DNA of 26,927 nt from IMG/VR virus record IMGVR_UViG_3300029787_000267, positions 1-26,927 of that record. The stretch is one strand, 5' to 3'. The notes beneath the pieces are model-generated. The model saw only the letters and a program-made list of their open reading frames with translations, did not search any database and was not told the origin of the DNA. Position numbers and translations under genes: made by a program. Source of the DNA: a virus. Below are positions 13,171 to 26,927 of this stretch, one piece after another. The number at the start of each line of letters is the position of its first letter. Position 1 is the first letter of the stretch.

Positions 13171-16149
13171 ATGTTTCAGTTTATGAAAAAAATGGTTATG
13201 ACAGCAGCAATGTTTGGAATTGTTTTTGCTCAAAATACTCCAGAACCTATTATTAGAGTTAAACAAATGGGTGAATGGAAGACACCAGAATACTGGTGGA
13301 AAGCGCAAGAAACTATCCAACTACAAACTTTCTTAGCAGATGATATTACAACACCTGCTTTAAAAAATAATAATTTTGACTCGTGGAGAGATGACATATT
13401 AGAAATAGAAGTCACCATTGATGATAAAGGAGCAGATATCACCACATTTAGATTTGATATTGCATTTGATAATGACCTTATTACTTGGGTTGAAAATGAC
13501 GGAACTAATGTAGAGTATGGTGGAGACGAAACAAATAATACAAATGGACATACTGCTTGGAGTCAAGGAAACTCACGAGTAATTAAAGGTAGTCATATAT
13601 CAGGTTGGGACGAGGGTGAGGAATCAGATGATGATTATACTTTTGAAGTAACTTACTTTGATGATGTTGGATATATAGATAGTATTCAAAATAGTGGTGC
13701 TGAACAATCAACAACGGATACAAGTTATGATTGGTTAAGAATTACTATGGTATCTCACGGACACGACGACGACGGAACAGCAGGACCAGATAAAAAGTTT
13801 GGTAATGGAAGCGGAAACGAAGTTCAAATCCTTAAATTACAATTTAGAATAGAGGATGTGGTGGATAATTATGAACCACACTCATTTAGGATTCCAACAC
13901 TTTATAGTGGTGGTAGTGGTTATTACACTTATGTAAGTGATGACTATCTATTACCATATAAACTTTATATTGACGGAAATTGGGGAACAGATGGAACAAA
14001 TAATGGTGGTGCAAGAGGAGACATTACTCTACACCCTAAACTTGTTGATGTTGAAGGTTTCGCAAGATACATTGGAGAAAAAACCGACACAGATAGTGAC
14101 GGCGTAGATGACGATACATTTGTTCAGAAAGCTTATCCTTATTGGAAAGTTGTATTTGAATTAGATGAAGATAATCCAGATGATAACTCTAATTGGTATG
14201 ATATAGAAGATGTAGCAGACGATACAAGCACAGCAGATGAAGATTTATCTGATGATGTTATCGGAGATGATAGTGGAACATACTATTATCTAAAAATGTT
14301 AGATACTAATGGAACGACAACATTAGCAAATCAAACATTACCAGGAAACGGATTTTTAGGAGTATCTTATTTTGATTATACCTACACAGATAAATACGGG
14401 TATTATAATATTCAATTACCAAGAAACAATAATTATAGAGTATCTTTCTGGCCACCAGATTCTCTTGATGTAATTGGTCAACATACACAATTAGAATTAG
14501 ATAGAGGAGCGATTACAAACATTAATGACGCAATCGCATCATTTAATTTCCAATCAAACAAATTTGAAACTAAAGATAATATCAATGTAGATTCACCAAG
14601 TGCTTACTTGATTGGTGATGTAGACGGAGATGATGTATTTCAATTAAACGATACATACTTTTTATGGGCATATGTAAGTGGAGTATTTGATTCAACATAT
14701 ACGCATATAAACGGAAATACATATCAAGACTGGTCAAGTATTGATAAATTGAAAGATTCAAACGGAAATGCAGAAACTCTTAATTACTACCAAGCACTTA
14801 GAGGTGGTGATACAAAACAAAGAAGAGAGTTTAGTGTTTTTTGGGACAATAATTTAGCACAAGAGGACTCAACACTTTCACAAGACGCTGGTGGCGTTAT
14901 TTGGATTAATCCTTTAATGGACCAAGTTCAAACGGGACAAGATACTTTAAATGTTAGTATCGGAGCAGGAACATCAACATTTGATGACCCTGATGTAGAT
15001 GGAGATGGAGATGTTAATCCAGATAGAACACTTGGTGAAATAGCATACTACTTTACAGGTGATATGAATTTATCAGGAACAATGGTTCAAGAAACAGGTG
15101 AAAATGCAGACGGATACCAAGACGCATACACAGGAACAACTTACTATCGTTGGGGAACACACACCGTTGTCCAAAACGGAAATTCAGGAGATAGTTCTTG
15201 GAATCAAAATTGTGTAAATGCAACTTGTGATGACGCACCAAGTGCTTGGACATACGCTGATAATAATAGTGGAAATTATGACGGAAGTAGTAGAACAATG
15301 GCTACAACACCTGATGTAAGATTAGAATTACCAGCAGATGGTACCGTTAAAGTTAGTATGGGTAATCAAGTTTCAGTTCCATTGACAATTAAACCAAGTC
15401 TTAATGAACTAACAGGAGAGACTACGAAGATTGCAGGATTTGAATTTGAAATAAGATATAGAGAAGACCAACTTACATTTATAGACGCTCAAACAGGACT
15501 TTTACCAGGCCCTTGGATGACTTATCTAAATGAAAGTGAAGAAGATGAAAATGGATATACTACAATTTCATTTGGTGGTTTAGACAATTCACCTAACAAT
15601 GCACCACAAGATTACTACATTACAGAAGATATGGTTGGTTTAGAACTAATATTTAGAGCCGATTCATTGAGTAATTCTACTGACGAGTGGACAACAGCAG
15701 ACCTACAATTCGTAGGAAAAGCAAATGCAGGTAATCCAAATGGTGATGACTTACTAATGGATAGACAAAGTGGTAATGTGAGAATATGGAATAGATATTG
15801 GGCATTTGGTGGTGGACAACCAAATGAGGACGAAATGACATATGTTTACCCAAATCCATACAACGCAAGTAATCCATTACACAAATCAATCAATTTTCAA
15901 TTCTTTATGGTTGAAGAGGGTAATGTAAACATTAGTATTTATAACACACTCGGACAGAAAATAGTTGAGTTGATGGATGATAATATTGAACAAGGATTAC
16001 ACAATTATAACTTTGGAAGTTTACCAGACGCAGTAGGTGAAGGGGAATCTATGTTTAATGGATATGATGATTTAGATTCAGGTGTTTATCTATTTGTAAT
16101 GGAGACTGGAAATAGAATTAAGTCCAAGAAATTTACAATAATTAAATAA
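13171..16149 (+). CDS. secreted multidomain protein with T9SS C-terminal sorting domain
   Basis: 992 residues with a signal peptide (KKMVMTAAMFGIVFA, likely cut between A20 and Q21). The mature part has a cohesin-like beta domain near the start (about 70-240), a Ca-binding thrombospondin-3-like run DTDSDGVDDD (about 307-316), two dockerin-like loops GDVDGDDVFQLND (about 481-493) and DPDVDGDGDVNPD (about 605-617), and a second cohesin-like domain (about 715-875). Residues about 890-992 form a type A T9SS sorting domain: YPNPYNASNP, VNISIYNTLGQKIVEL, DLDSGVYLFVMETG and final KSKKFTIIK. In FCB bacteria this domain sends proteins through the T9SS to the cell surface. Start at 13171 is favoured by GGAG 6 bases upstream; an in-frame ATG at 13183 is possible. 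The next gene is PorV/PorQ-like. Function of the cargo is unknown; surface adhesin or exclusion factor are guesses. Confidence 0.85.
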   Translation: MFQFMKKMVMTAAMFGIVFAQNTPEPIIRVKQMGEWKTPEYWWKAQETIQLQTFLADDITTPALKNNNFDSWRDDILEIEVTIDDKGADITTFRFDIAFDNDLITWVENDGTNVEYGGDETNNTNGHTAWSQGNSRVIKGSHISGWDEGEESDDDYTFEVTYFDDVGYIDSIQNSGAEQSTTDTSYDWLRITMVSHGHDDDGTAGPDKKFGNGSGNEVQILKLQFRIEDVVDNYEPHSFRIPTLYSGGSGYYTYVSDDYLLPYKLYIDGNWGTDGTNNGGARGDITLHPKLVDVEGFARYIGEKTDTDSDGVDDDTFVQKAYPYWKVVFELDEDNPDDNSNWYDIEDVADDTSTADEDLSDDVIGDDSGTYYYLKMLDTNGTTTLANQTLPGNGFLGVSYFDYTYTDKYGYYNIQLPRNNNYRVSFWPPDSLDVIGQHTQLELDRGAITNINDAIASFNFQSNKFETKDNINVDSPSAYLIGDVDGDDVFQLNDTYFLWAYVSGVFDSTYTHINGNTYQDWSSIDKLKDSNGNAETLNYYQALRGGDTKQRREFSVFWDNNLAQEDSTLSQDAGGVIWINPLMDQVQTGQDTLNVSIGAGTSTFDDPDVDGDGDVNPDRTLGEIAYYFTGDMNLSGTMVQETGENADGYQDAYTGTTYYRWGTHTVVQNGNSGDSSWNQNCVNATCDDAPSAWTYADNNSGNYDGSSRTMATTPDVRLELPADGTVKVSMGNQVSVPLTIKPSLNELTGETTKIAGFEFEIRYREDQLTFIDAQTGLLPGPWMTYLNESEEDENGYTTISFGGLDNSPNNAPQDYYITEDMVGLELIFRADSLSNSTDEWTTADLQFVGKANAGNPNGDDLLMDRQSGNVRIWNRYWAFGGGQPNEDEMTYVYPNPYNASNPLHKSINFQFFMVEEGNVNISIYNTLGQKIVELMDDNIEQGLHNYNFGSLPDAVGEGESMFNGYDDLDSGVYLFVMETGNRIKSKKFTIIK

Positions 16150-16158
16150 GGAGTAATT

Positions 16159-17013
16159 ATGAAAAAACTATTAGGTTTATTATTAATAACAGGAACATTA
16201 TTCGCACAAGCAAACAATGTCTTTACACTTAACCCAAGTGTAAATAGTGCCGGTATGGGTAATGTTGGTATGGCAAATGCTGATGTGAAAAATGTGTTTC
16301 ACAATCCAGCTTTTGCAGGATTAAATAAAAGACACCAAGAAATATCTTATGTGGATTGGTTACCAAATTTAACTGATGATATGGGATATCAAAGTATTTT
16401 ATATACTTCATCATTAGGTTGGTCAAGTGAACTATTTTACTTTGATTACGGAACACAAATTGAAGCGAATGAAGGTGGTCTCATATTAGGAGACTTCAAT
16501 GCGACATCATATAGATTAAGTGGTGGATATGGATTTGCAATCAAAGATTGGATGTTTGGAGCAAGACTAAATCTATACAATCATAACTTTATTGATAGTT
16601 TTGACATCAAGATGAATTATGGTTTTGACTTAGGTGCTTACAAAGAATTTGGAAACACATCTTTAGGATTAGTTCTAAAAGATGTTGGTGGTGAAACAGA
16701 ATTCTTAGACCAATCACTTAATCTACCTATGTCAATTGGTGTTGGTGTAGGACAAAAGTTTGGAAACTTTACATTAGCATCAGATATTAAGTTCTATGAA
16801 GACTATAATTCTATTGGATTAGGTGGACAATATGATTTAGGTATCGCAAGTCTTAAATTAGGATACTACACAGAATCAGAATTTGAAGTTGATTACTTAA
16901 CATTAGGTGGTGGTATTGACGCAGGTATCGTAGATATATCATTAGCATATTATTACAACACAGATAGTTTCCACAACGAAACATTAATGATTTCATTTGG
17001 GTTTGACTTATAA
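16159..17013 (+). CDS. PorV/PorQ-like outer-membrane beta-barrel protein
   Basis: 284 residues. Signal peptide KKLLGLLLITGTLFA with predicted cut before Q17. The mature N-terminus (NPSVNSAGMGNVGMANADVKNVFHNPAFAG, about 25-54) matches the hallmark of the PorV/PorQ family within the FadL-like barrels (usually SA..LGMGGA.VA..DD..A..NPAGL). After it come alternating strands with Gly and aromatics (YRLSGGYGFAIKDWMFGARLNLY, SLGLVLKDVGG, IGVGVGQKFGNFTLASDIKFY) up to a final TLMISFGFDL. PorV carries T9SS cargo from the SprA translocon to the attachment complex; PorQ anchors PorZ. It begins 9 bases after the T9SS cargo gene, with AGGAG upstream, so the two are surely one operon. PorV and PorQ cannot be told apart here; a plain FadL-type porin is the alternative. 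Confidence 0.75.
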   Translation: MKKLLGLLLITGTLFAQANNVFTLNPSVNSAGMGNVGMANADVKNVFHNPAFAGLNKRHQEISYVDWLPNLTDDMGYQSILYTSSLGWSSELFYFDYGTQIEANEGGLILGDFNATSYRLSGGYGFAIKDWMFGARLNLYNHNFIDSFDIKMNYGFDLGAYKEFGNTSLGLVLKDVGGETEFLDQSLNLPMSIGVGVGQKFGNFTLASDIKFYEDYNSIGLGGQYDLGIASLKLGYYTESEFEVDYLTLGGGIDAGIVDISLAYYYNTDSFHNETLMISFGFDL

Positions 17014-17136: not shown

Positions 17137-17547
17137 ATGGCAAAAAAACAAGTAGACGCAGAACAATTAGTAGATAATCTACAAAACGCAAAGTTTGGAT
17201 TATCAATACAAAATATAGTAGCTATCGTTACGGTATTATCATCACTCATAGCAGGTTGGTATACTTTTACAGGTAGAATAGATTCATTAGAAGAAGTAGT
17301 TCAAGGATTCGCAGAAACATCAGACATTGAATTAGTCGGACAGAAGTTAGAAGAGTTTGAAAAAAACATAGACTATCTAACAGAAAGAGTTGACGCTGGT
17401 GCAGACTTATCAGATATCAAAGGTGATATCGTAGAACTACAAGGTGATGTGAAAAATCTTAACAGAACTATTAGAAGTGTAAGTAAAGCAATTGAAACAC
17501 ACGAGGTAGATTTTCACGGAGACCCATTAGCAAAATTTAAAAACTAA
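17137..17547 (+). CDS. membrane-anchored coiled-coil protein
   Basis: 136 residues, unrecognised. AAGGAT lies 7 bases before the ATG. One membrane helix (about 24-43, IQNIVAIVTVLSSLIAGWYTF) without a cleavage site is followed by about 80 residues with heptad-like leucine/valine spacing (DSLEEVVQGFAETSD, LVGQKLEEFEKNIDYLTERVD, GDIVELQGDVKNLNRTIRSVSKAIE), predicted coiled coil, and a short tail. This architecture is that of inner-membrane spanins and of phage membrane adaptors; no partner with a lipobox sits inside or beside it. Role in lysis or envelope bridging is inference. Confidence 0.72.
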   Translation: MAKKQVDAEQLVDNLQNAKFGLSIQNIVAIVTVLSSLIAGWYTFTGRIDSLEEVVQGFAETSDIELVGQKLEEFEKNIDYLTERVDAGADLSDIKGDIVELQGDVKNLNRTIRSVSKAIETHEVDFHGDPLAKFKN

Positions 17548-17675
17548 TGATGTTCTTTAAAACCAACGAAGCAAAAATTAAACACTTACAAAAAGAGTTG
17601 AAACGAGAAGACTTGTCTTTATTGAAAAGATTAATCTTTATGGTCCAACTAATGATGTTAGGATTTAAAAAGTAA
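17547..17675 (+). CDS. basic/hydrophobic mini-protein
   Basis: 42 residues. Its ATG overlaps the previous stop by one base and its own stop overlaps the ferredoxin ATG by one base, a double TAATG arrangement that strongly suggests a translated gene. The first half is basic and helical (KIKHLQKELKRED), the second is hydrophobic and Met-rich (LIFMVQLMMLGF) ending in KK, an amphipathic or membrane-active peptide by appearance. No family recognised. Confidence 0.55.
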   Translation: MMFFKTNEAKIKHLQKELKREDLSLLKRLIFMVQLMMLGFKK

Positions 17676-17962
17676 TGGCATTTGTAATAACAGAACCTTG
17701 TATTTCAACTTGTGATACTGCTTGTGTATCGGTTTGTCCAGTGGATTGTATTCACGGACCAATTGATAAAGAAGGAGCAGGAGCAGAAGTTGAGGGTATG
17801 GACTCAGTTGCAGGTATGCAATTATATATACATCCTGACGAGTGTATTGATTGTGGTGCTTGTGAACCTGAATGTCCGGTAGATGCTATCTATGATGAAG
17901 ATGATTTACCAGAAGAATATGAAAAGTTCGTAGAAATTAACGCAAAATTTTTTGAGGAGTAA
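17675..17962 (+). CDS. bacterial-type ferredoxin with two Fe-S clusters
   Basis: 95 residues. MAFVITEPCISTCDTACVSVCPVDC (start) and YIHPDECIDCGACEPECPVDAIY (about 51-73) are the two cluster motifs of the 7Fe/8Fe FdxA-type ferredoxins, with CxxCxxCxxxCP intact in the second and C9, C13, C17, C21-Pro, C25 in the first. The acidic C-terminus (EEYEKFVEINAKFFEE) is usual in this family. An about 20-residue insertion between motifs (GAGAEVEGMDSVAGMQ) is also seen in FCB homologues, as I recall. Soluble, cytoplasmic electron carrier; which phage or host reductase uses it cannot be told. It lies between envelope genes and is translationally coupled to the mini-protein before it. Confidence 0.9.
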   Translation: MAFVITEPCISTCDTACVSVCPVDCIHGPIDKEGAGAEVEGMDSVAGMQLYIHPDECIDCGACEPECPVDAIYDEDDLPEEYEKFVEINAKFFEE

Positions 17963-17965
17963 AAA

Positions 17966-18667
17966 ATGAAACATATATTAAGTTTATTTACATTAGTGTT
18001 TTTATTAGGTTGTGCAACTTCACAAGTTGAAGCTCAATCAGGTAAAACAAAAGTTCAATCTAAAATAGCATCATACGAAGCAGAAAAAACTCTTGATGAT
18101 ATTAAATGGTATGACGGAGAACCAGAAGGAATACAATTAATTCAGATTAAAGTATCTGAAAATATTTTAAATGCATATCCAGAACTTCGTGATAAACGAG
18201 TTGGGTTCGGTATGACTAATAGAATTATTGAGGTATTGGAAGAAGCAGGTCGTTTTTATTTCGTAGAAGAAAAAGATGAAGTTATTAATAAAATGGTTAA
18301 AGAGTGGGAACGAAGTGTTAGTGGATTATTGGAAGAAGAATTAAATGTCGGTAAGTTCGCAACAACTAAATGGTTTGCTTATGCAGAAATTTATGACTTC
18401 GCAGTGTCTAATCAAGAAGAAATCGTTAGAAGAAAAGCAAAATTAAAAAATACAACTATGGTTGGTATCCAAGTTCGTTTAGTAAATGTAGAAACAGGTA
18501 GATACATTACAGGTAGTGGATTAGGAACAAGTGCAAAAGAAGGTGAAGGAGTATTGAAAAACCTTGATATGTCATTTGACCAATCAACCGTATCATTTGC
18601 AACAACAGGCGCAGTAATCACTGCGGTAGCAAATGTATTGAGAAGATTAGAGAAAAGAGGTTGGTAA
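17966..18667 (+). CDS. CsgG-like outer-membrane lipoprotein
   Basis: 233 residues. An N-terminal lipoprotein signal (LSLFTLVFLLGC, Cys16 as lipid site) is followed by a Ser/Gln-rich linker. The body fits the CsgG fold: VGFGMTNRIIEVLEEAGRFYFVEEKDEVINKM (about 72-103), the strand-rich WFAYAEIYDFAV, then GIQVRLVNVETGRYITGSGLGTS (about 166-188, compare AVNLRVVNVSTGEIL in E. coli CsgG) and a final helix FATTGAVITAVANVLRRLEK. CsgG forms the outer-membrane pore of the curli (type VIII) secretion system. This protein is shorter than E. coli CsgG (277) and the regions of its two membrane hairpins look reduced, so pore formation is uncertain. GAGGAG lies 6 bases upstream of the start; the stop overlaps the next ATG. 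Confidence 0.75.
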   Translation: MKHILSLFTLVFLLGCATSQVEAQSGKTKVQSKIASYEAEKTLDDIKWYDGEPEGIQLIQIKVSENILNAYPELRDKRVGFGMTNRIIEVLEEAGRFYFVEEKDEVINKMVKEWERSVSGLLEEELNVGKFATTKWFAYAEIYDFAVSNQEEIVRRKAKLKNTTMVGIQVRLVNVETGRYITGSGLGTSAKEGEGVLKNLDMSFDQSTVSFATTGAVITAVANVLRRLEKRGW

Positions 18668-18854: not shown

Positions 18855-19841
18855 ATGAAATGGTTTTTAACAATATTATTATTAGGTAGTCTTTACGGAC
18901 AAGGTTTTGGTTATAATTATATAGACCCTTGTAATCAACAAGCGGTAAATCTTAATTATTCAACTGAAACAACAGCTAATGGATTTTGGGTAACTTATTA
19001 CAACCAAAGAGCATTTTTTACTTGGACACAAGTAGCAGACGGAACACTACAAGCTTGGACCCAACAAGTTTATAGTGATTTTGAAAAATTATTTCCTTGT
19101 GCGGTTAACATCGCAGAGGAAGCATTAGCATCAGCTAATACGATTAATTTAGCAGATGAGTTAGAAAGGGAAGACGAGGAAGACATTGGAGCTTCGGAAC
19201 CAAGTTTTATCGGTGGTGATATTGTTAACACCTTTTACGATTATGGTTCAGTAGCTACATTTAATTCAGTTTATACGAGAGAAAATTTTGATTTAACTCA
19301 AGAGTTTAATTATACATTAAACATTACTTTAGATTTAAAAAAAGTATTAGGTTTGTATGGTAATACAAGAAAGTTTAAAGACAAAAGACAGAATGCTTTT
19401 TGGAATGCAGGAGCATTATATTACAGAACTTTTGAGGGTAGTGATTGGTTAATCACAGGTAATTACGGAAAAGTAATTCGTAATGATATTAGACAAGTTG
19501 GATTATTAAGTTCATCTATTGGTCAAATATCAAAAGAAAACTTTTTAAATTTAAATATGATGTATGGGTATAGATTACCAATACCAATACGAGATAACAC
19601 AATATTTTTACAGACTTTTGTAAGTTATACATTATTTAGATATTTTGAGGGTTTAAAAACAGAAAACAAATATTTATTATTAGAAAGTCCTATATTGATT
19701 TATCCAGGTGCAAGTATTGATATAAACTTTACCGAAACATTCAAGATGAATTTTGGATTTTATGTCGGATACAACACATTAGTAAACGATATAGGCGAGA
19801 GAAACATAAGTTATTCCATTGTATTTGGAACAAACTTTTAG
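18855..19841 (+). CDS. putative outer-membrane beta-barrel protein
   Basis: 328 residues. Signal peptide KWFLTILLLGSLYG with predicted cut before Q16. The N-terminal mature part (about 16-95) has two cysteines (DPCNQQ and FPCAVN) that could form a disulfide, with YYNQRAFFTWTQVADGTLQAWTQQVY between them. An acidic linker (LADELEREDEEDIGASEP) leads to about 200 residues of alternating strands (FNYTLNITLDLKKVLG, NLNMMYGYRLPIP, IFLQTFVSYTLFRYF, FKMNFGFYVGYNTLV) ending SYSIVFGTNF, a C-terminal Phe as in outer-membrane proteins. The ATG at 18855 is chosen because it gives the signal peptide; the ATG at 18851 is in another, short frame. Role unknown; it sits between two CsgG-like genes. Confidence 0.7.
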   Translation: MKWFLTILLLGSLYGQGFGYNYIDPCNQQAVNLNYSTETTANGFWVTYYNQRAFFTWTQVADGTLQAWTQQVYSDFEKLFPCAVNIAEEALASANTINLADELEREDEEDIGASEPSFIGGDIVNTFYDYGSVATFNSVYTRENFDLTQEFNYTLNITLDLKKVLGLYGNTRKFKDKRQNAFWNAGALYYRTFEGSDWLITGNYGKVIRNDIRQVGLLSSSIGQISKENFLNLNMMYGYRLPIPIRDNTIFLQTFVSYTLFRYFEGLKTENKYLLLESPILIYPGASIDINFTETFKMNFGFYVGYNTLVNDIGERNISYSIVFGTNF

Positions 19842-19850
19842 GAGATAAAA

Positions 19851-20366
19851 ATGAAGAAACTATGGTCAATCATATTACTAATTGGATTAGTAAACGCACA
19901 AATGCCAGAACCAACAATGGTAGGTCAAGATAAACTACAAGTTCCAACTTTGTCAATTAACAATTTTGTTAATCAAGCAGAGATTGAGGGATTAGAAGAC
20001 TCAAGAGTTTTCTTAGGTATTTCAAATATACTTACAGAAAATGTAATGGATTCAAGATACGACTTGGTAGAACAAGATTCAGATTTTGAATTAACAGCAA
20101 GAGTAATTTATCTTGGAAGACCAAGAACATCTACAACATTTCTTGGATTGTTTAGAAGAGAAACCACTACAACAGAAGTTCGTGTAGTTGTTGAATTGAG
20201 AAACAAAAAAACAGGTCAAGTAGTAAGTGGTAATGGAATAGGAACTATTGATAGAGAGATTAGTTCCACGGGGTTTCAGATAAACGAAGAATTACCTTTT
20301 GATAGAAGTGAACTCGGTGGAGCACTGAAAGAGGCGATAGGTAATGCGGTTCAAGAAATATTATAA
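19851..20366 (+). CDS. second CsgG-like secreted protein
   Basis: 171 residues. Signal peptide KKLWSIILLIGLVNA, predicted cut before Q17, no lipobox. The mature part resembles the CsgG fold: LQVPTLSINNF (first strand), RVFLGISNILTENVMDSRYDLVEQDSDFELTARVIYLG (about 62-99) and VRVVVELRNKKTGQVVSGNGIGTIDRE (about 117-143), then a final helix ELGGALKEAIGNAVQEI. The VVSGNGIGT segment parallels ITGSGLGTS of the lipoprotein gene at 17966, so the two may be distant paralogues or partners. AGGAG 8 bases before the ATG. The 3' end overlaps the next gene by 23 bases in another frame. The family call is from fold pattern and is moderate. Confidence 0.65.
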   Translation: MKKLWSIILLIGLVNAQMPEPTMVGQDKLQVPTLSINNFVNQAEIEGLEDSRVFLGISNILTENVMDSRYDLVEQDSDFELTARVIYLGRPRTSTTFLGLFRRETTTTEVRVVVELRNKKTGQVVSGNGIGTIDREISSTGFQINEELPFDRSELGGALKEAIGNAVQEIL

Positions 20367-21060
20367 AGATATACTTTCTTTAATAGCATCACTATCATTA
20401 TTAGGTACGGTTTATTTTGTAAATCACTATGATATAAAACAATTATATCGTGAGTTTGCTACATTGAGATTGAAAGTTCAATCCCAAGAAAAAACAATCA
20501 ACACTTTAAATGATAGAGTTGATTTATTAGCAAAACAAAATCAAGATTTACTATACGAATTACGAGAGCACAATGAAACTCGTGGTAGTGAAAATTCTTT
20601 ACTATTAGAAAGATTACAAGACTTGGAATATAAGGTTGAAGTTTTGTCTATGAAAAATACTTTGTCAAGTGGTAAGGTATTCAATGATAGATTTGAATTT
20701 ACAGATAAACAAGTCAATCGTGTAGGTCAATATGAAACCAAAGGACAAGTATTGGTTGCTTGGAAAGATGATTACTTAACAACTAAAAAAGTAAATGTCA
20801 ATACAATCGGTGAAATAAATGTTGTTCCAAAGATAAAAAAGCTTGACAAAGACGAATTTGTTTCGTATATTGATGAGAGTTATTTAGGTGGTATAATTAT
20901 ACGTGGACAAGGAGAAGTTCAAAAAATAGAACCACCAAGAAATCAATTTAGTTTTGGACCTTTTATCGGCGTTGCGTATAACGGAGTCACTGGTTTAACT
21001 GAACCGATTGTCGGCATTGGAGTTTCATATAATTTAATAAAAGTATGGGATTGGAGATGA
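20344..21060 (+). CDS. membrane-anchored coiled-coil protein, spanin-like
   Basis: 238 residues, starting inside the preceding gene (23-base overlap). One N-terminal membrane helix (about 11-26, LSLIASLSLLGTVYFV) flanked by basic residues, then a long coiled coil (about 30-100: LYREFATLRLKVQSQEKTINTLNDRVDLLAKQ and on), then a small beta domain (about 125-200) and a Gly/aromatic-rich C-terminus (SFGPFIGVAYNGVTGLTEPIVGIGVSYNLIKVW) of the kind seen in outer-membrane or spanin-like phage proteins. Such a chain could reach from inner to outer membrane. No endolysin or holin is visible in this window to confirm lysis. Unrecognised family; role inferred from architecture. Confidence 0.68.
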   Translation: MRFKKYYKDILSLIASLSLLGTVYFVNHYDIKQLYREFATLRLKVQSQEKTINTLNDRVDLLAKQNQDLLYELREHNETRGSENSLLLERLQDLEYKVEVLSMKNTLSSGKVFNDRFEFTDKQVNRVGQYETKGQVLVAWKDDYLTTKKVNVNTIGEINVVPKIKKLDKDEFVSYIDESYLGGIIIRGQGEVQKIEPPRNQFSFGPFIGVAYNGVTGLTEPIVGIGVSYNLIKVWDWR

Positions 21061-24213: not shown

Positions 24214-24391
24214 CGACAACTTATATAAAGTTCACATAAGTTCTGATGTGTATGGTAAATTAAAAGAAGAATTTAATATTAAGAATACTTGCAAATATAT
24301 GAAAAAAGGTGAGATATTCGCATATGATATTATAGTAGATAAAGATGAATTAAAAAAAGTTACAAAACGACTTGAGGAGTTTGATTGTTAG
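24188..24391 (+). CDS. small hypothetical protein after primase
   Basis: 67 residues, starting 26 bases inside the end of the primase gene. WQIDDNLYKVHISSDVYGKLKEEFNIKNTCKYMKKGEIFAYDIIVDKDELKKVTKRLEEF reads as a compact alpha/beta protein with two Cys (35 and last). No motif recognised. Placement between primase and the Mre11-Rad50-like gene suggests a replication or recombination accessory. Confidence 0.65.
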   Translation: MENNTWQIDDNLYKVHISSDVYGKLKEEFNIKNTCKYMKKGEIFAYDIIVDKDELKKVTKRLEEFDC

Positions 24392-24399
24392 AATCAAAA

Positions 24400-26927
24400 A
24401 TGAAGGTTCCATTTAGGAAACTAAAACACATACATCACATTAGTGATATTCAAATAAGAAATCTAAAACGACACAGAGAATACGAAGAAGTATTTAATAA
24501 ATTATACGAAGAAGTTAAAAAGAATCCGAAGAATGCAATTTCTTATATCGGTGGTGATATTGCACATAGTAAAACAGAAATGTCACCTGAGTTAGTAGAC
24601 CAACTATCTCGTCTATTCAAAAATTTAGCAGACATATGTCCATTAGTTATTATCGCTGGTAATCACGATGCTAATCTAAACAATCCAAATCGTATGGATG
24701 TGTTAACACCGATTGTAGAAAATCTAAATCATCCAAATCTACATTATCTTAAAAGAACAGGTGTGTATAGATGTGGTGATACTAATTTAGTTGTGTGGGA
24801 TGTTTGGGATAAAGAATCAGATTATATAAAAGCAAAAGATATCAAACAAGACGGAACAAATGTGGTGTTGTATCACGGAACCGTAGACAGAAGTGAAACA
24901 GACTTAGGTTTTAAATTACCATCTAAAGTCAAAATGAAAATGTTTAAAGACTACGACTTAGCGTTATTAGGTGATATTCACAAAAGACAATTTATCAACA
25001 AAGAAGAAACTATCGCATATTGTGGTTCTTTGATTCAACAAAATCACGGAGAGGATATCGGTAAAGGTTATTTACTATGGGATGTTCCAAAGAGAAAATC
25101 TCAATACATAGAAATACCAAATGATTATGGATACTATACAATCAATATAGATAATGGTAAATTACCAGACCTATCCGATTTACCTAATAAACCAAGAGTT
25201 CGTATTAGAGTAAGTAATACAAAACCTGCTCAACTGAAACGAGTGATGACACAACTACAAAAGAAATGTAAAATACAAGAAAGTGTTATCACAAGAGTAG
25301 ATGGATTATCAAAAGATAAAGTTCGTGATAATAAAATTAACATTGGTAATGTAAACAATGTAGGTTATCAATTTAATTTAATTGAAGAATATCTAAACAA
25401 TAACTATGCAGTTGATGAAGATACTATGGTTAAGATAAACAAAATTTTAACAGAACTAAATACCAAAATAGCATCAGAGGATATTTTAAGAAATATCAAT
25501 TGGAAATTAAAAAAGTTTGAATTTAGTAATATGTTTAGTTATGGTGAAGATAATGTAGTTGACTTTACTAAACTAAATGGTATTATTGGTTTATTCGCTC
25601 CTAATGCAAGTGGTAAGTCAGCATTATTAGACGCATTAGCTTTTTGTTTGTTTGATATATCTACAAGAGCGACAAGGGCAAACAATATAATCAACAAAGC
25701 AAAAAATAATCTACATTGTAAATTAAACTTTGAGATTGACGGAGTAGATTACTTTATTGAAAAAAGAGGTAAGAAGAATCTTAGAACAGGACACGTCAAA
25801 GTAGATATTGACTTTTGGATGGTTGATGAAAATGGAGATACCACAAGTCTTAATGGGGACCAAAGAAGAACCACACAATTAAATATCAGAAAAATAATTG
25901 GAGATTTTGAAGACTTTATATTAACATCAATGTCAAGTCAAAATGATTCTACGGTGTTTATTAATAAAACACAGAAAGAAAGAAAAGAGTTATTATCACA
26001 ATTTATGGGACTAAAAATATTTGATAGATTGTGGGTTCAAGCATCAGATGATATTAAAGATGTAAATGCTTTATTGACTGATTTTAAGAAAGCAGACTAT
26101 GATTCAGAATTGGCACAGATTACGAACGAACTTATCATATTAGAATCTAAGGAAAAAAATCTAAAAAGTCAAGAAGAAAATATAAAAATTGAAATAAAAG
26201 AATATCAAGAAAAAATAGAAAAAGAAACTAAAAAACTTAAACCAGTAGACCAAACTATTAGAGACATAGAAGTTTTAAAAGATGAAAAAGATAAAATGTC
26301 TGATTTATTACAAAAAGTTTCTCACGACAAAGACGGAACATTAACAGAACAATACGATTGTGAACTACGAATTACAGATATTCAAAACAAAATAAAAACT
26401 TATGAGAAAGATAATGTTCAAGAAAACTTTGCCAAATTAGAAAAGTTAGAACAAGAGAGAGATTTGTTTCAAATAGAATTAGACAAACTAAAAGCAGATG
26501 TAAAGATTAAATTAGACAAAATTGAAAAACTTGGTAATTTAACTTGGGACGAAAATTGCGAACATTGTATGAGTAATCCTTTTACATTAGATGCTATTGA
26601 AACTGAAAAACATTTAGGTAAAGATAAAGAATTAGCAACAAAATATTTAACAAAGAAATCTCGTATGGACGACAAGATACAAAAAATGTTTAAAGTTCGT
26701 GCATACAAAAAAGATTTAGATGAATTAGGTCAATCGTTGGTTGAAGGAGAATCACGACACTCTCAACTTGTATCTAACTTACAATATCTCAACGAACGAG
26801 AAGAGAACATACAGAATCAAATCAATTCTATTGTAAGTGAAATGGACAAATATGTCGCACAAGAAAAAGATGTCGTCTTTAACCAAACGATTGATTTAAA
26901 AATCCAAGACTTAAAATCAGAACAATA
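24400..26927 (+). CDS. fused SbcD-SbcC (Mre11-Rad50-like, gp47-gp46) protein, 3' truncated
   Basis: One open frame of 842 codons without stop, running off the window. Residues about 8-330 are an Mre11/SbcD nuclease: HISDIQ (D16, Q18), GGDIAH (D53), AGNHD (N88-H89), YHG (H159) and GDIH (H194). About 375-842 is the N-terminal part of Rad50/SbcC: FSNMFSYGEDNVVDF, Walker A APNASGKSALLDA (K406), Q-loop region LTSMSSQNDSTVF, coiled coil, the zinc hook C720-E-H-C723, and the returning coil; the second ATPase lobe must lie downstream. T4 encodes these as separate gp47 and gp46, which process double-strand breaks and recombination-dependent replication forks. Motif I has Gln where the usual metal ligand is His (DxH). 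ATG at 24400 lacks close SD; a TTG at 24385 sits 5 bases after GAGGAG and would add five residues, so the start is uncertain. Confidence 0.9.
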   Translation, partial: MKVPFRKLKHIHHISDIQIRNLKRHREYEEVFNKLYEEVKKNPKNAISYIGGDIAHSKTEMSPELVDQLSRLFKNLADICPLVIIAGNHDANLNNPNRMDVLTPIVENLNHPNLHYLKRTGVYRCGDTNLVVWDVWDKESDYIKAKDIKQDGTNVVLYHGTVDRSETDLGFKLPSKVKMKMFKDYDLALLGDIHKRQFINKEETIAYCGSLIQQNHGEDIGKGYLLWDVPKRKSQYIEIPNDYGYYTINIDNGKLPDLSDLPNKPRVRIRVSNTKPAQLKRVMTQLQKKCKIQESVITRVDGLSKDKVRDNKINIGNVNNVGYQFNLIEEYLNNNYAVDEDTMVKINKILTELNTKIASEDILRNINWKLKKFEFSNMFSYGEDNVVDFTKLNGIIGLFAPNASGKSALLDALAFCLFDISTRATRANNIINKAKNNLHCKLNFEIDGVDYFIEKRGKKNLRTGHVKVDIDFWMVDENGDTTSLNGDQRRTTQLNIRKIIGDFEDFILTSMSSQNDSTVFINKTQKERKELLSQFMGLKIFDRLWVQASDDIKDVNALLTDFKKADYDSELAQITNELIILESKEKNLKSQEENIKIEIKEYQEKIEKETKKLKPVDQTIRDIEVLKDEKDKMSDLLQKVSHDKDGTLTEQYDCELRITDIQNKIKTYEKDNVQENFAKLEKLEQERDLFQIELDKLKADVKIKLDKIEKLGNLTWDENCEHCMSNPFTLDAIETEKHLGKDKELATKYLTKKSRMDDKIQKMFKVRAYKKDLDELGQSLVEGESRHSQLVSNLQYLNEREENIQNQINSIVSEMDKYVAQEKDVVFNQTIDLKIQDLKSEQ

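Follow-up and report, generated by a model that had tools for sequence, protein, structure and literature searches.

Type A cargo of the type IX secretion system (T9SS) is served by one common shuttle, PorV; type B cargo has a dedicated shuttle, needed in matching amounts and often encoded directly downstream, and some of these shuttles may also anchor their cargo (PMC12618676, PMC9143113). On the viral side, sorting-domain proteins are encoded by crAss-BACON phages (PMC6949934), and phage-encoded T9SS cargo is described for Cryophage, whose authors suggest use of the host T9SS and a possible link to superinfection (PMC7468147, 2020). Here we analyze a 26,927-base virus record from IMG/VR (IMGVR_UViG_3300029787_000267; its whole length is referred to as the window) in which a gene for a type A cargo is immediately followed by a gene for a PorV-family outer-membrane barrel. 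We read this pair as a phage surface-display unit that borrows the host T9SS, and give this reading a probability of about 0.6. Phage T9SS cargo is already published; the phage shuttle is the new part.

Results

A type A cargo protein and a PorV-family barrel

The window begins with baseplate and tail genes, including gp25- and gp6-like baseplate wedge genes, with RusA, a cytidylyltransferase-like gene, a primase and an SbcC-like gene at its other end. Between these two runs lie the open reading frames of the cargo (992 residues; 13171..16149, + strand) and the barrel (284 residues; 16159..17013, + strand), separated by 9 bases. The lengths, coordinates, gap and motifs given in a preliminary description, made from the letters of the window, proved exact throughout.

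The cargo comprises a signal peptide, a variable passenger, a cohesin-fold domain and a C-terminal sorting domain, and is kept in IMG/VR relatives. Its hydrophobic N-terminus is a predicted signal peptide (MFQFMKKMVMTAAMFGIVFA, then glutamine; 13171..13230, + strand), which ends in FA-Q or FG-Q and is conserved in every complete relative. The Q-rule for Bacteroidetes places glutamine at position +1 of the mature protein (PMC10653852). The cargo, the barrel, and two further exported proteins encoded downstream all carry glutamine at this position and fit the rule.

Residues 892-990 of the cargo (15844..16140, + strand) score 29.9 bits with the NCBIfam type A sorting-domain profile TIGR04183, whose cut-off is 23 (expectation value (E) 4e-7), in agreement with the preliminary assignment. 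The Pfam model of the same domain, PF18962, scored 14.9 bits, short of its cut-off of 27. Judged from sequence, the match to the type A family is real but divergent. TIGR04183 is matched by 13 of 14 cargo relatives (two of the 14 are cut off at contig ends), and the YPNPY, GQK and G-Y motifs and the terminal KKFTI-K are kept in their sorting domains. AlphaFold2 modeling, in which a seven-stranded immunoglobulin-like fold was sought, predicted strands at residues 908-989 with predicted local distance difference test (pLDDT) values of about 30-67. Modeled at full length, the cargo gave a poor result, with a mean pLDDT of 38, and only the cohesin part of the model, with pLDDT mostly 50-80, was used. 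This part, residues about 716-873 (15316..15789, + strand), matches solved cohesins in Foldseek with E values of 1.7e-8 to 1e-6; the Pfam Cohesin model matches weakly (E 0.0016) and under its cut-off. Neither the type B sorting-domain models nor the PorP/SprF models gave an NCBIfam match for the pair at E up to 1.

The barrel carries a signal peptide and matches the PorV/PorQ family profile NF033709 (90.1 bits, cut-off 90, E 2e-25), as do all eight aligned barrel relatives; scores in relatives reach 96.8 bits. The PorV equivalog NF033710 is matched at some level by seven of the eight relatives, and the PorQ equivalog NF033711 scored 62.8 bits for the barrel of the window, below its cut-off of 220. 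The AlphaFold2 model, of medium quality (mean pLDDT 67), has 14 strands. Its top Foldseek matches in the PDB are the PorV chains 6h3i_F (E 1.4e-10) and 8gl6_F (E 2.1e-10), both from structures of the SprA-PorV translocon, the latter of which holds a type A sorting domain (the RemA C-terminal domain, RemA-CTD). After PorV come OmpU and porins at 7e-8 or weaker, and TodX/FadL proteins at 2e-6 or weaker. A search of the PDB with the barrel sequence profile returned nothing but chance matches to ankyrins and RPN8. The PorV/PorQ-like identity proposed in the preliminary description therefore stands, and the FadL-type porin that it named as the competing identity does not: the barrel has no match in Pfam, Toluene_X (PF03349) included, and TodX/FadL structures rank under PorV. 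We propose that the barrel is a dedicated shuttle or anchor for the cargo.

The pairing is conserved across related phage contigs

All close relatives of the window are metagenomic contigs. The junction is covered by 18 further IMG/VR contigs, of which 17 carry both genes in full and one has the C-terminal 298 residues of the cargo. The barrel is the next sizeable gene after the cargo in all 19 junction-spanning records, the window included, so the conserved pairing that the preliminary description proposed looking for is indeed present. Two pairs of contigs are identical across both genes, and the number of independent junctions is accordingly smaller than this count. Cargo and barrel genes are 8-11 bases apart in 14 of the 19 records and overlap by 4 bases in two (contigs L169 and L170); a short insert separates the genes in the other three (about 400 bases in L032 and L033, 186 in L172). 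The insert in L033 (8603-9001) holds an open reading frame of 132 residues with a signal-peptide-like start, rich in histidine and lysine. Eight other related contigs (L013-L020) break off within the cargo or at its start, a pattern that fits assembly failing at a variable region. Purifying selection acts on both genes, with ratios of nonsynonymous to synonymous substitution of 0.14-0.42 in the pairs listed.

A chimeric assembly of phage and host DNA, the artifact considered in the preliminary description, was rejected, as contigs from several metagenomes share this junction and have phage genes flanking it in each direction. The phage origin of the pair is thereby upheld.

The probable host lineage encodes SprA and PorV

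Since bacterial genomes scanned with the barrel yielded no match, a ferredoxin gene downstream of the pair (17675-17962) was used as the pointer to the host. Among 75 bacterial loci its nearest relatives are the ferredoxins of two Neomarinimicrobiota (66-67% identity), followed by others at 58-62%. The host of these ocean phages is thus probably a streamlined lineage of the uncultured phylum Marinimicrobia. We surveyed 24 genomes from the family of one of these two Neomarinimicrobiota. SprA scored above cut-off in 19 of them. A general PorV (about 180-220 bits) was present in 20, and 15 have a second PorV-family gene, scoring about 88-119 bits. No CsgG above cut-off was found in this family.

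In 15 of 15 cases the second PorV-family gene has a TIGR04183 match 142-170 bases upstream on its own strand; the general PorV lies near such a match in none of 20. In the host regions that were fetched, the cargo ends 10-19 bases ahead of the PorV paralogue. A dedicated type A shuttle may exist in these bacteria too. This chromosomal cassette, found in 15 genomes of one family, resembles the phage pair in joining a type A cargo to a PorV-family gene within tens of bases. It differs in its passengers, which have no significant similarity beyond the sorting domain, and in the outer-membrane receptor-like gene that precedes the cargo (L143 and L147-L154 among the family genomes). The phage barrel resembles the general host PorV (29% identity over 285 residues, E 4e-19) and not the cargo-linked paralogue. 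In the tree the phage barrels form one clade on the general-PorV side, opposite the paralogue; long branches meet there, and this placement is provisional.

The pair belongs to a larger block of exported envelope genes

The pairing given in the preliminary description held; the larger block to which the two genes belong, made up of genes for exported envelope proteins, went unmentioned in it. Downstream of the barrel follow, in order and on the + strand where given, a 136-residue membrane-anchored coiled-coil protein with one hydrophobic stretch (17137..17547, +), the ferredoxin, a 233-residue lipoprotein with a lipobox-like N-terminus, LLGC (17966..18667, +), a 328-residue exported and probably outer-membrane protein with a signal peptide ending YGQ (18855..19841, +), a 171-residue exported protein with a signal peptide ending NAQ (19851..20366, +), and a 238-residue membrane-anchored coiled-coil protein (20344..21060, +). 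The 171-residue protein is weakly related to the lipoprotein (hhalign probability 80% over 62 columns). Both coiled-coil proteins are spanin-like by profile, with weak Rz-like matches of E about 4e-3 to 4e-5 (phrog_739, E 4e-5, for the 238-residue protein, and E 7e-4 for a relative in L170). The lipoprotein had been suspected by eye to be CsgG; it matches neither PF03783 nor any PDB chain.

The block order, including the place of the 136-residue protein, is conserved. In L170 (463-16252), where the barrel is 48% identical to that of the window, the same order lies between the portal and major head genes and lacks the ferredoxin. The ferredoxin is present in the window and most close relatives and absent from the block in the diverged L167, L169, and L170. 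Since the order is kept at two genome positions, we argue that the block is a functional unit. In L172 the whole block adjoins the portal gene rather than tail genes.

Part of the block is shared, in the same order, by the cultivated Flavobacterium phage immuto (MW353176.1, L158; 12691-15868, genes 15-18). Its cargo, annotated merely as 'cohesin domain-containing protein', has 243 residues with a cohesin-type and a sorting domain (TIGR04183, 45.4 bits) and lies two genes ahead of a homologue of the 233-residue lipoprotein (33.6% identity over 97%). The next gene, immuto35A_18, is similar to the 328-residue protein (pairwise E 3e-6). The immuto cargo itself is weakly similar to the C-terminal part of the 992-residue cargo (23% identity, pairwise E 4e-6). 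Immuto thus shares with the window a cargo of cohesin-type and type A sorting domains, the lipoprotein and a similar exported protein, and differs in its far shorter cargo and in having no PorV-family match.

Elsewhere in the window, a single reading frame (24385-26925) fuses a phosphoesterase-like N-terminal part to an SbcC-like ATPase part. In phage T4 the proteins gp47 and gp46 are separate. The T4 late-promoter motif shows no excess over expectation in the window, and sigma-70-like sites are rarer than in shuffled sequences.

Searches for other phage-encoded shuttles

A tblastn search of 50,697 phage records with the barrel returned nothing, and no relative of the cargo was found there either. 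Host PorV gave three matches among phage records, all to unverified fecal 'Bacteriophage sp.' entries (MT836897.1, MT835954.1, and MT836010.1). The two examined, MT836897.1 and MT835954.1, are bacterial chromosome by their neighbors (C25 peptidase-PorV-YgbB-tRNA methyltransferase in one and subtilase-PorV-SusE in the other). A viral scan with host PorV produced no relative. The preliminary description knew of no phage cassette of T9SS cargo and shuttle. For the cargo this is not so, as PMC6949934 and PMC7468147 precede it; for the shuttle it held, as none was found in the 50,697 phage records or in the literature searched, which covered few subscription journals.

Discussion

The phage pair and the bacterial cassette are the type B arrangement built of type A parts. 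Like SprB-SprF, Fjoh_3952-3951, and PG1035-PorP, the phage cargo comes with its own 14-stranded shuttle, which in F. johnsoniae is often encoded directly downstream (PMC12618676, PMC9143113); unlike in those systems, the sorting domain is type A, the barrel belongs to the PorV family, and the pair is phage-borne. As in Cryophage, phage proteins with type A sorting domains vary between variants. In its accessible text PMC7468147 presents enzymes and a PA14 protein and describes no shuttle, whereas the window encodes a cohesin-bearing cargo, a PorV-family barrel and a larger block. Phages of other small marine bacteria also carry outer-membrane export parts of unsettled purpose, namely the curli pore genes csgGF of pelagimyophages and of methylophage Melnitz (PMC7029224, PMC9004378). 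Those belong to a different secretion system, and the lipoprotein of the window matches neither the CsgG model nor any PDB chain. The cargo-plus-shuttle arrangement that the preliminary description proposed is also found in bacteria of the probable host lineage, yet the phage barrel is closer to the general PorV than to the paralogue there.

In the reading we favor, the cargo would be exported across the inner membrane by Sec, be recognized through its type A sorting domain, and then pass the outer membrane through host SprA. The phage barrel would then collect the sorting domain at the translocon and carry off the cohesin-bearing protein, and it may also anchor the cargo at the cell surface. 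Its own barrel would free the phage from competition for host PorV. Export through the host T9SS, as put forward in the preliminary description, gains from a probable host with SprA and PorV; secretion itself, like the binding of cargo by barrel and the anchoring, is what the sequences of this pair suggest. As to purpose, we tentatively propose, with low confidence, that the surface of the infected cell would be altered, for example to block further phages.

Several observations weigh against this reading. The barrel scores just at the NF033709 cut-off, and the PorV equivalog NF033710 does not match it at E up to 1. The identities of cargo and barrel are nearly uncorrelated across phages (r 0.15), which speaks against strict co-adaptation; cargo and barrel types have therefore probably been exchanged. 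Published type A cargo makes do with the common PorV, and in the 160-kb immuto record no PorV-family match was found despite the sorting-domain cargo, so a private shuttle is not obligatory. Neither a C25 sortase domain nor GldM was found in the host family, weak absences given that the control genomes were silent too.

The other proteins of the block span the envelope, and the main rival on purpose is therefore that the block serves envelope disruption or egress; the T9SS pair would then contribute at lysis by weakening the outer membrane or opening it. A lipoprotein, exported and outer-membrane proteins and two membrane-anchored coiled coils in one block would suit such a role, as would the spanin-like matches of the 136- and 238-residue proteins, and a lysis role has been proposed for phage-encoded curli pores (PMC9004378). 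We consider this unlikely, since the matches to spanins amount to weak similarity between coiled coils, neither a holin nor an endolysin was identified next to the block, and a lytic role leaves the sorting domain, the shuttle and the 992-residue cohesin-bearing passenger unaccounted for.

A decoy or replacement for host PorV, sustaining or titrating host type A export, would account for a barrel that is nearer to the general host PorV than to the cargo-linked paralogue and on the same side of the tree, and for the recombination of cargo and barrel types; its place behind the cargo would then be a convenience of the operon. The tight junction, with its 4-base overlap in two contigs, argues otherwise, as does the gene order, which is unchanged where the block occupies another genome position, and no contig was found with the barrel behind another upstream gene. 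This explanation appears less probable still than egress. Least credible of all is a virion- or tail-associated adhesin whose sorting domain and barrel are host-derived leftovers with no T9SS role. The cargo is variable in sequence and stands in the window behind the tail and baseplate genes, a place where phage receptor-binding genes are often found, but in L170 the block stands beside head genes and not tail genes. The conserved signal peptide, a sorting domain intact to its last residues, purifying selection and the adjoining outer-membrane barrel all count against leftovers, and we regard this explanation as very improbable.

That phages use host secretion to export single proteins is known. 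In this case a phage lineage seems to bring along the next part of the machine too, and to have retained it through deep divergence and relocation. A dedicated type A shuttle, if true, would depart from the published view of one PorV for all type A cargo. Taken to its full extent, the surface-display reading would give Marinimicrobia phages their own terminal T9SS branch, in which a dedicated type A shuttle-anchor and its cargo, carried in a conserved envelope block, display a cohesin scaffold on the infected cell. We hold this at somewhat short of even odds; should it be right, we know of no earlier virus-encoded T9SS shuttle. If the reading is true, the partial block in the cultivated Flavobacterium phage would open the purpose to experiment, and the pair would provide both a case of a dedicated type A shuttle and a handle on viral surface remodeling in an uncultured marine phylum.

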